Below, one piece after another: positions 35,515 through 39,877 of a stretch of DNA of 64,000 nt. The position numbers were made by a program, and so were the translations under genes. The notes under the pieces were generated by a model that saw only the letters and a program-made list of their open reading frames with translations, did no database searches and had not been told where the DNA came from. Source of the stretch: Paracandidimonas soli (GTDB lineage Bacteria; Pseudomonadota; Gammaproteobacteria; Burkholderiales; Burkholderiaceae_B); assembly GCF_004342005.1 (NCBI RefSeq), contig NZ_SMBX01000002.1:434001-498000 (forward strand). Reading direction: 5' to 3'. The stretch's first letter is position 1; each line of letters starts with the position of its first letter.

Positions 35515-35641
35515 CTGACCACGGGCCAAAGCGAAAGTCTCGGCCTTCAGACCGAGGTCGAGCGAGGTAATATCCGTACGGCGCCGCAGGCGCCCCCGTA
35601 TGGTGACGAGGAAGCTCTCGACTTCAGGCGGGAATGACTCA
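35515..35641 (+). repeat. TnpB-less IS200/IS605 right-end-like element, copy 1
   Basis: A 127-bp unit with three hairpins: TCTCGGCCTTCAGACCGAG, then CCGTACGGCGCCGCAGGCGC and its partner through GTATGG, and a final CTCTCGACTTCAGGCGGGA-type stem followed by ATGACTCA. The last stem and tail resemble the right ends of IS200/IS605-family elements, where the omega-RNA scaffold lies. It aligns without gaps to the inverted copy at 39751-39877 (16 differences in 127). The plus-strand frame stays open up to TGA near the end in both copies, as expected if it once was the 3-prime end of a tnpB gene. No transposase body is present. Confidence 0.65.
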
Positions 35642-35748
35642 TCAATGGCTGTCTGGCCGGTTTGCGGATGAGGGGCGGGTCGATTACATTGCGTCTTGAT
35701 GCTCGATTTTCAGAGCGTTTTGATTGTTTTGTTTGGTTGGGTGATATC

Positions 35749-36531
35749 GTGGTGAACAAAGACTCCGGAAGTGATTCGTTGGTCCAGCGGCTCGATGCGA
35801 TCCGTCGACGCATGGACGAGGCAGCCTTGCGCTGCGGCCGCGAGGCGGGCTCGGTCGTGCTGCTTCCCGTTTCCAAGACGTTCGGCGAGCAGGCCATCAG
35901 AGAAGCCGTTGCGGCGGGAGAGCGCCGTTTCGGCGAGAACAAGGCGCAAGAGATCCGCGAGAAGTTCGAGCCCTTGTCCGATTGCGGAATCGACTGGGTC
36001 ATGATCGGCCATCTGCAGACGAACAAGGCCAAGGATATCGCCCGGATGGCTTCCGAGGTCCAGTCGCTGGACCGCAAGGATCTGGCCATCGCTCTGGACC
36101 GCAGGTTGCAGCAGGAAGGGCGGGCCATCGACGCCCTGGTGCAGGTCAAGACCTCCTCGGAACCGACCAAATACGGCATGGATCCGGCGGAAGTCGCGGA
36201 TTTCCTGAGGTTTCTCGCGCGCGACATCTCCACGATCCGGGTGCGCGGCCTGATGACGCTGGCCATCAACGAAAGCAACGACGCCGCGGTACGCTCGTGC
36301 TTTCGGCAGTTGCGCGAATTGCGCGACCGCCTGCGCGACGAGACCATCGACGGCGTATCCCTGGACCGCCTTTCCATGGGAATGAGCGGCGATTTCGAGA
36401 TCGCCATCGAAGAAGGCTCGACGGAGGTGCGGATTGGAACCGCGATCTTCGGCGCGCGCAACTATGGTTCGGACTATTACTGGCCCGAAAACACGAAATC
36501 GGGCGCAAAAGACGCCGGAGACGCAGAATGA
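35749..36531 (+). CDS. yggS: YggS/PLPBP-family pyridoxal phosphate homeostasis protein
   Basis: A roughly 260-residue single-domain TIM barrel binding PLP through the lysine in LPVSKTFGEQAI. FGENKAQEIREKF, WVMIGHLQTNKAKD, VQVKTSSEPTKYGM, RGLMTLA and LSMGMSGDFEIAIEEGSTEVRIGTAIFG are family motifs. It keeps cellular PLP in balance and has no known enzymatic activity. The start is uncertain: two adjacent GTGs (35749, 35752) precede NKDSGSD; a farther ATG at 35662 would reach almost into the repeat. Confidence 0.88.
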   Translation: MVNKDSGSDSLVQRLDAIRRRMDEAALRCGREAGSVVLLPVSKTFGEQAIREAVAAGERRFGENKAQEIREKFEPLSDCGIDWVMIGHLQTNKAKDIARMASEVQSLDRKDLAIALDRRLQQEGRAIDALVQVKTSSEPTKYGMDPAEVADFLRFLARDISTIRVRGLMTLAINESNDAAVRSCFRQLRELRDRLRDETIDGVSLDRLSMGMSGDFEIAIEEGSTEVRIGTAIFGARNYGSDYYWPENTKSGAKDAGDAE

Positions 36532-36953
36532 CGACGCACGATACTCCCGGCATCGAAGACTATCCGTTCACGATAACAGAGCGGGTCCGCTACCGCGACA
36601 CGGATGGCCATGGCCACGTCAACAACGCTGTGTTCGTCACTTACCTGGAAACCGCCCGGGTCGTCATGGTGCAGGAACGCGAAGACCGGCTGCTGGACGA
36701 AGGGTGCCAGTATGTCGTGGCGCGGCTGGGCATCGATTTCCTGCGCGAGATTCTCTGCCCGGGAGAAGTGGAGATCGGCATCCGCATGCAAAAGATCGGG
36801 CGCAGCTCCTTTACGCTGGACCAAGCTATTTTCCAGGATGGAAAATGCGCCGCGCGGGCAGAAGTGGTCATTGTGCAGATCAATAAGGCGCAGCGCAGGT
36901 CTCAGCCGTTCAGCGAGGCGCTGCGTGCCAGACTGCTGGAGTTGCAGCCATAA
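36528..36953 (+). CDS. Hot-dog fold acyl-CoA thioesterase (YbgC/FadM-like)
   Basis: A 141-residue 4HBT-type thioesterase; RYRDTDGHGHVNNAVFVTYLE carries the catalytic Asp and the HVNN motif. It hydrolyses acyl-CoA thioesters in the cytosol; the natural substrate is unknown. It overlaps yggS by ATGA, and the gene ends 14 bases from the convergent nickel/cobalt transporter gene. Confidence 0.88.
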   Translation: MTTHDTPGIEDYPFTITERVRYRDTDGHGHVNNAVFVTYLETARVVMVQEREDRLLDEGCQYVVARLGIDFLREILCPGEVEIGIRMQKIGRSSFTLDQAIFQDGKCAARAEVVIVQINKAQRRSQPFSEALRARLLELQP

Positions 36954-36967
36954 GGCCCAGGCCGTTG

Positions 36968-37954
36968 CTACAAGATGGGATGAGGCACTGCGCTCAGCCC
37001 TTGCTGGAGCAGGCCGATCCCCATGAGACCGATCGCCGTTCCGCCGATGAGGCCCAGTATGTCGAAAATGGTGGCAGTTCGGTGCCCGGACGCCGTCCCG
37101 CGTTGGAAAAAGCGCAGCGCGAGATGTCGAAACGACACGGCCGCCGTGGCCAGGAGGCTCACAGTTGCTGCGGTACCAAGCGACATGGCCAGTACGGCGG
37201 CAATGCCGACCCAGCGCAAGTCCAGGGAATAGGCAACAAGCAGTACGAGTATGGCGCCGGTACATGGCCGCATCCCGATGGCTAGGATGATGGGCAGTCC
37301 GGTACGCCATGTCAGGGGCTGGTCTATATGCTCGTCCGACAAGCGGTGCGGGCCGCCGCATTCGGCGCAATACGCCCGCATCTTGCCATCGCCTGAAAAC
37401 AGGGAGCCCTTGGGGCGCTTCGCATGGTGCCAGCGGCGATAGAGCGCTCTTGCGCTGCGCAGGGCCAGCACGGCTCCGAGTAGCGCAACCAGGGCGAAGC
37501 TGAGGTTTTCCAGCTGGCCTGCGGCGCCCTGGGTGCGCCGCAGCGAGAAGCTCAGCAGATTGGCCACGACTTCGACGAGAAGCACCGCCACGATGCCCTG
37601 GATGATGGCCGACGAGATCGACAGGATCAGGCCGCGCCGCAAACGCATCCTGCTGGTACCCAGGTAGGTAGCAATCACCGCTTTGCCGTGGCCGGGGCCG
37701 GCCGCATGGAAAATGCCGTAGAGCAGGCTGATCCCGATGAGCGGCCACGTCGCGGCCCATCCTTGCCGGGAGACCTGGCGCATGGCAGAGGCAAGTTGCT
37801 GGTGCAAGTCGGCCTGTGTCGTCATGATCCAGGCCAGAAGCCTGTTCCATGCGTCGTAGCGGTCCAGCAGCCCCCATGCCAGGACGACCAGGATGCCGGC
37901 CAGGGCGCATCCGGCCAGCATGCGAGCGCTCCTCTTGCCACGTATCATTTGCAT
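36968..37954 (-). CDS. NicO-family nickel/cobalt (divalent metal) transporter
   Basis: A 328-residue inner-membrane protein with about seven hydrophobic segments. YGIFHAAGPGHGKAVIATYL is the RcnA/NicO metal-path motif, repeated in part by GMRPCTGAILVLLVAYSL. A hydrophilic loop with YCAECGGPHRLSDEHID has Cys and His residues that could bind metal. It overlaps the DUF1007 gene by ten bases; this pair is common and is usually assigned to nickel, cobalt or zinc export or import. Direction cannot be judged. Confidence 0.85.
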   Translation of the reverse strand: MQMIRGKRSARMLAGCALAGILVVLAWGLLDRYDAWNRLLAWIMTTQADLHQQLASAMRQVSRQGWAATWPLIGISLLYGIFHAAGPGHGKAVIATYLGTSRMRLRRGLILSISSAIIQGIVAVLLVEVVANLLSFSLRRTQGAAGQLENLSFALVALLGAVLALRSARALYRRWHHAKRPKGSLFSGDGKMRAYCAECGGPHRLSDEHIDQPLTWRTGLPIILAIGMRPCTGAILVLLVAYSLDLRWVGIAAVLAMSLGTAATVSLLATAAVSFRHLALRFFQRGTASGHRTATIFDILGLIGGTAIGLMGIGLLQQGLSAVPHPIL

Positions 37955-38571
37955 CGGATATGCACCTTTTCCGCGAAGAGATCGCCCAGCGTGTCGTCGG
38001 GCGAGGCTCCGCGGTCCAGGGCGAACGCGCGCGCAATGGTTGCTGGAGACGGATTGGGCGGTTCGACGTGGACCCGGCAATGATTTTTTTCTTTGCTCTT
38101 GATGGAGGGCGGATCGTCTGGACGATGGACCATCCGAATGAAATAGGTGGGGTCGTACACGGAGAACTGGACGGCGTGGTGCTGGGGATCCACGGGCCTG
38201 GCAAGGGGAGCGGTAAAGGACAGCAGCAATTGCTCGCCCTTCATTTCGCTTTTGAACTGCGTGACGGTGTCTATCTGGACCGGACGGCCATCCTCGGCGA
38301 CCTTCATGAAATAGCCATAGGGGCCAAGGTTCCCGATGACCTCGGCGGCGAAGTCGCGAACGGCCACCTCTTTCTCCGCGCCATTATCGGCCAAGCCCTC
38401 GAGAATGGCCGAGCTGTACATATCGTCGAACAGCCACTCCTCCTCGATGGCTGAAATCAGACCCTCGGCCGACATGACGATCGTGCTTCGCACATCGATC
38501 CATGCGTGAGGGTGGGCATGCAGGCCAAGTGGAACAAGCGCCAGGACAAGCGCGGCAAGTCGTCTATTCAT
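37945..38571 (-). CDS. DUF1007 periplasmic protein, partner of NicO transporter
   Basis: A 208-residue secreted protein. The signal peptide ends at LHA, and the mature chain starts HPHAWID, so a His-rich N-terminus is exposed after cleavage, typical of DUF1007 and fit for metal binding. The remainder has a WLFDDMYSS segment and a conserved FSVYDPTYFIRM segment. Probably delivers metal to, or takes it from, the NicO channel. Confidence 0.85.
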   Translation of the reverse strand: MNRRLAALVLALVPLGLHAHPHAWIDVRSTIVMSAEGLISAIEEEWLFDDMYSSAILEGLADNGAEKEVAVRDFAAEVIGNLGPYGYFMKVAEDGRPVQIDTVTQFKSEMKGEQLLLSFTAPLARPVDPQHHAVQFSVYDPTYFIRMVHRPDDPPSIKSKEKNHCRVHVEPPNPSPATIARAFALDRGASPDDTLGDLFAEKVHIRCK

Positions 38572-38656
38572 GCTGCTGTTGCGGCCTCTCGGCAGTACCG
38601 ATGCTCGCTTGTAGCGTTGGGTGCCTTTCGGGTGGTGCATCAGGCGTGCTGGAGTC

Positions 38657-39610
38657 CTACTCGATATTCTGCGCCTGTTCCCGCAACTGCTCGATCAGCA
38701 GCTTCAGGTCGATGGCGGCGCGGGTTACGGTCAGGCTGGCTGATTTCGAGCCCAGGGTATTGGCTTCGCGGTTCATTTCCTGGAACAGGAAGTCCAGGCG
38801 CTTGCCTGTGCTGCCGGCTTTTTTCGCGGGAGCAGCGGAAGAGTGCGAGCCATTGCTCCGAGACTCGGCGGGCGCCAGCAGATGGCGCAGTTCACTGATG
38901 TGCGAACGCAGCCGGGCCAGCTCTTCCGCAATGTCCACGCGCAGCGAGAACAGCGATGATTCCTGGGCGATGCGCGCCGACAGTTCTGCGCCGCTGATCT
39001 GCGCGAACCCTTCGGGGCTGACGGCATTGAGGGCGTCCTGCAGCTTGCGCGCGATCTTGGATCGATGCTCCTCCAGCAGGGCGGGCTGCTCTTGCTCGAT
39101 CTGATCCACGATTTGCTGCATCTGCCCGGCCTGTTCGAGCATGGCGGTTGCCAGCCTGGCGCCTTCGCGCAGCCGGTTGGCCTGCAGCTCGGCCAGGGCC
39201 TGTTCCGCGGCCTGCAGGCACATGGGAACCCAGGTGTCCGGCTCCATGCCCCTGCCATCGTTTCCGCCCGAGGACGCCTGAAGCAATTCCTCGAGCCGGG
39301 GCGCGGGTGTATCGGGGATGACGGACCTGGCCTGCGCGAGCAGGTCCGCCTGATCCTCGAGAATGCCGGCGTCGAGCGTGCGCACAGTGCGCGCGACCGC
39401 CAGGGAGTAGCTCAGACGTGCATCGATCTTGCCTCGGTTCAGTGTTCTGCCGATCAGTTCGCGCAAGGGTTGTTCGGCGGCGCGCAAGTCGTCGGGCAGC
39501 CTGAGGCTGACGTCGAGAAAGCGGTTGTTGACGGTGCGAAACTCCAGGCTGACGCTGCCCGCTTCGTTTTCGACGCGGGCACTGCCAAACGCTGTCATGC
39601 TGGAAATCAT
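38657..39610 (-). CDS. yicC: YicC-family endoribonuclease
   Basis: A 317-residue protein with the YicC N-terminal domain (MISSMTAFGSARVENEAGSV, FRTVNNRFLDVSLRLP) and the C-terminal DUF1732 domain (GKRLDFLFQEMNREANTLGSKS ... LKLLIEQLREQAQNIE). YicC in E. coli is an endoribonuclease acting on small RNAs. Here the two parts are separated by an extra low-complexity insert (ESRSNGSHSSAAPAKKAG). AGGA stands seven bases before the ATG. Confidence 0.92.
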   Translation of the reverse strand: MISSMTAFGSARVENEAGSVSLEFRTVNNRFLDVSLRLPDDLRAAEQPLRELIGRTLNRGKIDARLSYSLAVARTVRTLDAGILEDQADLLAQARSVIPDTPAPRLEELLQASSGGNDGRGMEPDTWVPMCLQAAEQALAELQANRLREGARLATAMLEQAGQMQQIVDQIEQEQPALLEEHRSKIARKLQDALNAVSPEGFAQISGAELSARIAQESSLFSLRVDIAEELARLRSHISELRHLLAPAESRSNGSHSSAAPAKKAGSTGKRLDFLFQEMNREANTLGSKSASLTVTRAAIDLKLLIEQLREQAQNIE

Positions 39611-39750
39611 GTGTGTTCCTGATTCGATGTGAAAAAGATGCCTGGGCGCGGGGCCTTCATCCCGGGACGACCCGGCGATGAGAACGGCGGCCTCCATTAT
39701 CGCCCACGGCGCGCGCAATCGTGCAGTCATGCGGGACAAGGTTTACACTG

Positions 39751-39877
39751 TGAGTCGCTCCCGCCTGAAGTCGGGAGCTTCCTCGCCACCATACAGAGGC
39801 GCCTGCGGCGCCGTATGGACACTGCCTCGCTTGACCTCGGCCTGAAGGCCGAGGTTTGCGCTTTGGCACGTGGTCAG
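39751..39877 (-). repeat. TnpB-less IS200/IS605 right-end-like element, copy 2 (inverted)
   Basis: Reverse-strand copy of the element at 35515-35641, about 87% identical. Hairpins on the minus strand: ACCTCGGCCTTCAGGCCGAG (10-bp perfect stem), CATACGGCGCC / GGCGCCTCTGTATG, and CTCCCGACTTCAGGCGGGAG, then CGACTCAC. The minus-strand frame is open for 44 codons and ends at TAA just past the element. It fills the gap between yicC and rph; the remaining bases of 39611-39923 hold nothing else recognisable apart from the rph ribosome site. Confidence 0.68.

Follow-up and report, generated by a model that had tools for sequence, protein, structure and literature searches.

A high-copy, gene-less repeat family in Paracandidimonas soli, very probably a miniature element of the IS200/IS605 type and PATE kind

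What are the two related, gene-less units that lie in opposite orientations on a stretch of Paracandidimonas soli DNA (GCF_004342005.1, contig NZ_SMBX01000002.1, positions 434,001 to 498,000 of the forward strand; the whole stretch of 64,000 nt is called the window below), and by what route did they get there? The original prediction had placed 127-bp units at 35515-35641 (plus) and 39751-39877 (minus), each with three stem-loops and a GACTCA tail, and had read them as IS200/IS605 right ends or as guide-RNA-like genes. We recovered both units, which align without gaps at 87.4% identity (16 differences in 127 positions), together with their stem-loops and tail. Their limits needed correction, since the leading TGAC is the target and therefore lies outside a unit of 123 bp (Table 1). 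The units belong to a real, mobile and structured repeat family of a known kind, marked by sharp ends, a TGAC target, the lack of target duplication at four loci, covarying hairpins, a left end similar to that of IS200/IS605 elements, and dispersal. This family very probably represents a miniature element of IS200/IS605 type and PATE kind, devoid of genes and present in many copies. The earlier guess was good with respect to family, and not with respect to part and function.

The host genome (G000; 3.89 Mb in 23 contigs, completeness 100) gave at least 40 matches in a sequence search, with E values from 3e-61 to 7e-28 (40 of 99 candidates scored). A covariance search, as suggested by the original prediction, returned at least 79 matches at E<=1e-3 and at least 67 at E<=1e-6, partial copies included; 150 of 3419 candidates were scored, so that 67 is a lower bound, and the model was built from 38 of the 40 sequence-search copies, which match it by construction. 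A pattern of the left end occurred 79 times and one of the right end 45 times (reversed-pattern control: 0), two counts that differ in the strictness of their patterns and are no safe measure of truncation bias. The ends were analysed in 47 near-full own copies, with 32 of the 79 model matches left aside as partial, aberrant or not fetched; alignment A2 omits L037 and L043, whose ends are aberrant. Body length was 123 bp in 33 of the 47 copies (range 114-129), which is too short for a transposase gene. TGAC stands at positions -4 to -1 (base counts in Table 1) and CAC at the 3' end, and positions outside carry at most 0.23 bits. From its target onwards, the left end runs TGAC, CAC.., AGCGCAAG, hairpin, GGTCAAGCGAGGCA; the right end runs GTGGCG, hairpin, ..TCAC. 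The closest own copies (L217, L219, L220) differ at 2 positions, which suggests recent spread.

Evidence for mobility came from a relative genus of ten genomes, in which four insertions (L127, L128, L129/L132 and L131) have contiguous empty sites in sister species, a comparison that the original prediction had likewise proposed. Empty sites were searched with joined flanks (L133, joined at first, was cut from the query), and clean junctions at the four loci were read in 3, 7, 6 and 4 sister loci, with L328 unplaced and L308 and L318 too diverged at the junction. At all four loci there is one target copy and no target duplication, as in PATEs. The filled site of L129/L132 reads CGTAGTTGAC-element-CCAAGG and the empty one, in L306 and L314, CGTAGTTGAC-CCAAGG: TTGAC is present once, the element follows it immediately, and no bases were gained or lost. 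TTGAC is also found at the empty sites of L127 (L304 and L316, where the sequence immediately before it is one base shorter than at the filled site) and of L128 (L324, the filled site having drifted to TTATC), and the empty site of L131 reads CTGAC in L322. The remaining clean empty sites are TTAAC, CTAAC, CTTAC, TGAAC or TCGAC and hold no TGAC, although TCGAC shares its last three letters. Insertion thus takes place 3' of a fixed tetranucleotide, TGAC, as expected of IS200/IS605 elements. Besides, head-to-tail dimers join the 3' CAC directly to the 5' CAC (...TTCAC followed by CACGCGCC in L135 and L142; decayed in L218), ends-only forms of 45-50 bp have lost the core (L197, L199, L200, L207), and many copies are truncated or core-less (28 partial loci examined). 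These 28 loci (L185-L212, about 3.2 kb) were also scanned for a right end as candidates for composite elements. None was supported, the scan giving only two short deletion forms (L197, L209), one own right end (L212), a reverse full copy (L190) and a reverse piece (L195).

The body has three hairpins: a left one set in a nested stem, a GC-rich middle one, and a right one 8 nt before the end. The GTG ahead of the right one is able to pair with the 5' CAC. Across 79 matches from 77 chosen loci outside model building (partial and duplicate loci left out), 92.5% of cells were paired and 26 of the 31 pairs had changed on both sides, compared with 37.5-45.7% paired cells and 12-17 doubly changed pairs in controls with slid partners. 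The shuffle counts (0/500) are not to be read as probabilities, given that the sequences are related to one another and were aligned to fit the structure. Palindromes near both ends and the absence of terminal inverted repeats are again traits of PATEs.

The link to IS200/IS605 comes from the left end. When copy 2 with short flanks was compared with 72,556 plasmid records, the sole matches were six haloarchaeal ones, covering the left hairpin and TCAAGCG. With a longer archaeal query, four of these six prove to have an IS200/IS605 tnpA annotated just downstream; L035, by our reading, retains no more than the beginning of a broken tnpA-like frame, and L034 has no tnpA annotated nearby. In all six loci, the archaeal TGAT followed by ACAGACCGATAGCGCA keeps the same spacing to AGCGCA as TGAC followed by CACGCGCCCAAGCGCA does here. 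Haloarchaeal IS200/IS605 elements (ISNma12, which is L331, and L330, L332 and L333) share the left-end layout TGAT, 10 nt, AGCGCA-hairpin-GGTCRAGCG...AGGCA, their boundary being inferred from the alignment, and they have a right-end hairpin with a short tail, as here. They differ in that this tail is GGTCAA or GGTTAA rather than CAC, and in having tnpA with a transposase/TnpB gene downstream, whereas the present element is gene-less. The left-end likeness gives good support for a relationship in type, and kinship with IS200/IS605, as originally proposed, is upheld at the level of architecture. The notion of solo right ends is not: full copies have a left and a right end, and it is the left one that matches known IS200/IS605 DNA.

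PATEs were defined in Haloquadratum walsbyi, core deletions included (PMC3119063). According to that source, they lack terminal inverted repeats, have palindromes near both ends and a longer 5' spacer, insert without target duplication next to a target oligonucleotide on their 5' side, are too short for a transposase, are kin to IS605-type elements at their ends, and occur as core-deleted, ends-only forms, all of which applies here; for the ends, the kinship consists of a short match on the left and of layout only on the right. Unlike the Haloquadratum elements (PMC3119063), those described here are bacterial, measure 123 bp, use TGAC as target, conserve a middle hairpin and reside in genomes without a detected Y1 enzyme. 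One PATE-like sequence has been reported in a bacterium (PMC7290912). The literature searched, which did not extend to subscription journals or ISfinder, held no description of this element family, PATE, REP and BRE being nearest. BRE, the Beta-proteobacterial repeat element of Bordetella, is likewise an Alcaligenaceae repeat with mobile features, partial copies and mostly intergenic positions, yet is described as 75-91 bp long and as forming tandem arrays of up to 8 (PMC3110155), two points in which it differs from the present element.

By analogy with IS200/IS605, the mover is probably a Y1 enzyme acting in trans on single-stranded DNA, which makes the mobilisation in trans invoked by the original prediction the likely route. 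A Y1 (HUH) transposase supplied in trans would bind the hairpins of both ends while the DNA is single-stranded, cut after TGAC at the 5' side and after the terminal CAC at the 3' side, and join the ends, and the strand would be re-inserted directly behind a different TGAC, on its 3' side. The GTG ahead of the right hairpin could pair with CAC at either end and may be the guide that picks TGAC and TCAC. Copies often persist where they do no harm, and those placed after a stop codon leave the 3' untranslated region (3'-UTR) beginning with a block of hairpins.

Several observations weigh against this reading. The match to haloarchaea spans a mere 36-44 bases, with a best E of 8e-4, and for the right end the resemblance is confined to layout. 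A gapless left-end profile scored highest at the correct place in five of the six archaeal loci (not in L331), and L333 fell below the shuffled maximum, so that convergence is possible; with a match this short, across domains and with mixed profile scores, the likeness supports the type and is no proof of descent. The CAC-GTG end pairing is near-invariant, with a double change in one of its three pairs and in a single sequence, and the middle hairpin falls outside the PATE definition. As to the enzyme, no Y1_Tnp (PF01797) was found in the host genome (6 of 14 control genomes were positive; IS91-type enzymes lay outside the search), nor in the other high-copy genomes G234, G251, G254 (81% complete) and G255. 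Y1 proteins occur in 64 of the 268 genomes of the bacterial family, that is, in 3 of 30 carriers of the element (G131, G133, G210) and 61 of 238 others (Fisher p 0.07), which renders their absence among carriers suggestive only. None of 30 fetched Y1 loci holds an autonomous element with these ends (metagenomes were outside this search), and none was detected in phages, in plasmids or, with four exact patterns, in viral contigs. As no Y1 TnpA was found in the same genome, we file the element as a non-autonomous relative and not as an insertion sequence. Y1 loci of the bacterial family were also considered as the autonomous source and rejected, their left ends not matching; among 21 of the 30 scanned loci, at least four have another frame besides the Y1 gene. 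The result adds to Betaproteobacteria a large PATE family of defined structure. With target, ends and empty sites established, its missing transposase can now be sought and put to the test; if recent copies did arise in genomes that lack a Y1 enzyme, their mover is still to be named.

The distribution is patchy and mobile-element-like. Matches at E<=1e-6 were present in 30 of the 268 genomes of the bacterial family and in 14 of its 43 genera, with the highest copy numbers in G000, G234, G251, G254 and G255 (at least 12 each; best 12 candidates per genome scored). An even draw of 399 genomes across the order, with 8 candidates scored per genome, contained three with matches at E<=1e-5: the host, G028, and G348 from another bacterial family. 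In eight genomes of one genus, a copy lies at the same place by a terminator-like hairpin (L106, L107, L111, L112, L113, L130, L134, L080); with its middle hairpin changing and its TGAC drifted, it is possibly a domesticated copy. Three loci of G234 (L115, L116, L118) share similar flanks, which suggests that a larger repeat carries the element along in that genome.

Placement with respect to genes was studied for the best 30 of the host's copies, each with flanks of 1.5 kb, taking open frames by sequence and calling window genes crudely. In 18 of these copies, the triplet at the target (TGA 17 times, TAA once) is the stop codon of an upstream frame open for at least 100 codons. A frame of this length occurs in 20 copies, and in 18 of them the stop-linked one is the longest (one third expected, p 2e-7). 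Judged by the crude gene calls, 394 TGAC insertion points of the window lie in genes and 63 outside, 11 of the 63 at stops, so that copies differ from available intergenic sites (18/30 versus 11/63, Fisher p 8e-5). Elsewhere, the stop-placed share was 7/12 in G255, 4/12 in G234, 3/8 in G251 and 2/8 in G113/G114. Frames that remain open for over 60 codons to both sides enclose none of the 30 copies on the element strand, and two (L019, L022) on the other strand. When the body is omitted, several further copies have their site spanned by long frames, on one strand or the other; the DNA is rich in G+C, so that many of these frames are chance, and insertion into genes is possible for single copies.

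This bias towards stop codons, with 11 of 63 as the intergenic background, is what a functional 3'-UTR module would predict, one that acts in mRNA stability or termination, is held by selection, and owes only its origin to mobility. On the other hand, many copies are truncated or core-less, purging from genes and promoters could explain part or all of the bias, and the bias depends on open frames and crude gene calls and is weaker in three of the other four sets; we hold such a module to be unlikely. The bias may reflect tolerance alone or use as well. In a tentative scenario to which we give about one chance in a handful, a PATE lineage might have outlived its own insertion sequence, spreading without Y1 TnpA or TnpB through an unrecognised enzyme, with the post-stop body recruited as a portable 3'-UTR structure. 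The niche after stop codons provides many natural tests of a hairpin block right behind a gene.

A mover of another class, e.g. an IS91-kind HUH rolling-circle enzyme or an unrecognised nuclease, would fit the five high-copy genomes without Y1 protein and the surplus of left over right ends in the host (79 versus 45, from patterns unequal in strictness). The left end, however, resembles tnpA-linked IS200/IS605 elements, and we deem this rival improbable. Still less credit goes to REP/BIME-type repeats moved by RAYT, in which, as in fluorescent pseudomonads, a GTGG tag accompanies a palindrome. The element shares with REP/BIME the high copy number and the GTGG tag before a palindrome, and its right end, GTGGCGAGGAAGCTCCC..., resembles the REP GTGGCGAGGGAGCTTGCTCCCGCT of P. 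fluorescens SBW25 (PMC2817692). However, RAYTs should match PF01797, as the positive E. coli control did, and the host genome has no such match; furthermore, the boundaries enclose the whole 123 bp, and the element has two different ends in fixed, direct order and a fixed length instead of inverted REP pairs.

The remaining rival is the guide-RNA role raised by the original prediction: the units would be stand-alone omega-RNA genes, the element being the scaffold of a TnpB supplied in trans and the DNA 3' of it the guide. The predicted absence of tnpA and tnpB holds for the window (no match to PF01797 or PF07282), and the host has three tnpB genes elsewhere (C5:74698, C8:138934 and C1:702286); the right end behind each of these, with GGGAGGATGTCAA or GGGGAGGATGTCAA, is not that of the element. 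A TnpB match was obtained in 5 of 31 carriers and in none of the other 26, which include the high-copy genomes G234, G251, G254 and G255. A full-length TnpB element ending with the unit sequence, which the original prediction had named as decisive, was looked for among the carriers: within the sequence retrieved, none of the 22 TnpB loci in these five genomes terminates 3' in the element itself, and L031 and L032 have only separate copies nearby. Although a covarying multi-stem structure with a right-end hairpin beside variable flanks and three tnpB genes in the host would suit omega-RNA, the rarity of TnpB in carriers, the other right ends at TnpB loci and the lack of any Rfam match at gathering score in the window make it the least credible reading of all. 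Three sub-threshold Rfam matches in a 4.8-kb region were taken as chance. The C8 tnpB is a 282-codon remnant with an apparently broken N-terminal part. The host combines its three tnpB genes with no Y1 tnpA match in its genome.

The sense frame is indeed open across both units, as predicted, an observation of little weight, since, with the last three codons left out of the count, 50% of dinucleotide-matched random sequences are open in a given frame and 89% in one or more of the three. Descent from a tnpB 3' end does not hold up either: the frame is no more open than chance, and its third codon position is the least variable (0.104 versus 0.161 and 0.142), the reverse of coding. The frame shifted one further base is open in 28 of 30 copies and, by plain comparison, has its third position most variable; copy length is not divisible by three in 9 of 47. 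Frame statistics and copy lengths led us to reject an in-frame protein role in general, one in-frame insertion notwithstanding. This is L131 (G114:C1:2352543-2354670, element 1001-1128, minus), where the element sits inside a gene whose 708-codon frame stays open throughout and, by our reading, resembles a UvrD/RecB-type helicase. The sister locus L310 encodes nearly the same protein without the 41-residue insert, and G113 gives a split match at the same place.

The two window copies themselves lie in divergent spacers and are exceptions to the stop-codon placement. One adjoins a gene that we take to be yggS, the other lies between what we read as yicC and rph. The yicC-rph regions of 75 named relatives are without the element; with YicC identities of 43-64%, these relatives are too distant for the junctions of both window copies to be read.

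Table 1. Positions of the two element copies and their parts in the window
Feature	Position	Strand	Remarks
TGAC target of copy 1 (flank, not element)	35516..35519	+	T46 G44 A47 C44 in 47 own copies; further upstream <=0.2 bits/position; single copy at empty sites
Copy 1 body, 123 bp, CAC...CAT (last base C to T)	35520..35642	+	
Copy 1 left-end hairpin (stem 1)	35538..35557	+	Covariation (helix 4); resembles the left ends of IS200/IS605 elements in haloarchaea
Copy 1 middle hairpin, GGCGCC/GGCGCC	35580..35594	+	Helix 5: 6/6 pairs with double-sided changes, 95.5% of cells paired
Copy 1 right-end hairpin, 8 nt before 3' end	35615..35634	+	Helices 6 and 7
TGAC target of copy 2	39873..39876	-	
Copy 2 body, 123 bp, CAC...CAC	39750..39872	-	
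Copy 2 left-end hairpin (stem 1)	39835..39854	-	Folding and covariation
Copy 2 middle hairpin	39798..39812	-	Folding and covariation
Copy 2 right-end hairpin	39758..39777	-	Folding and covariation

Within the host genome, subfamilies coexist (L042, L044, L216-L222) whose 3' end is mostly ...TTCTTCAC or ...CTCTTCAC and not ...TGACTCAC, and the stem preceding their right hairpin varies in step with this end. One of these loci, L219 (G000:C1:11657-12067), contains a full and a truncated copy back to back in opposite orientations.

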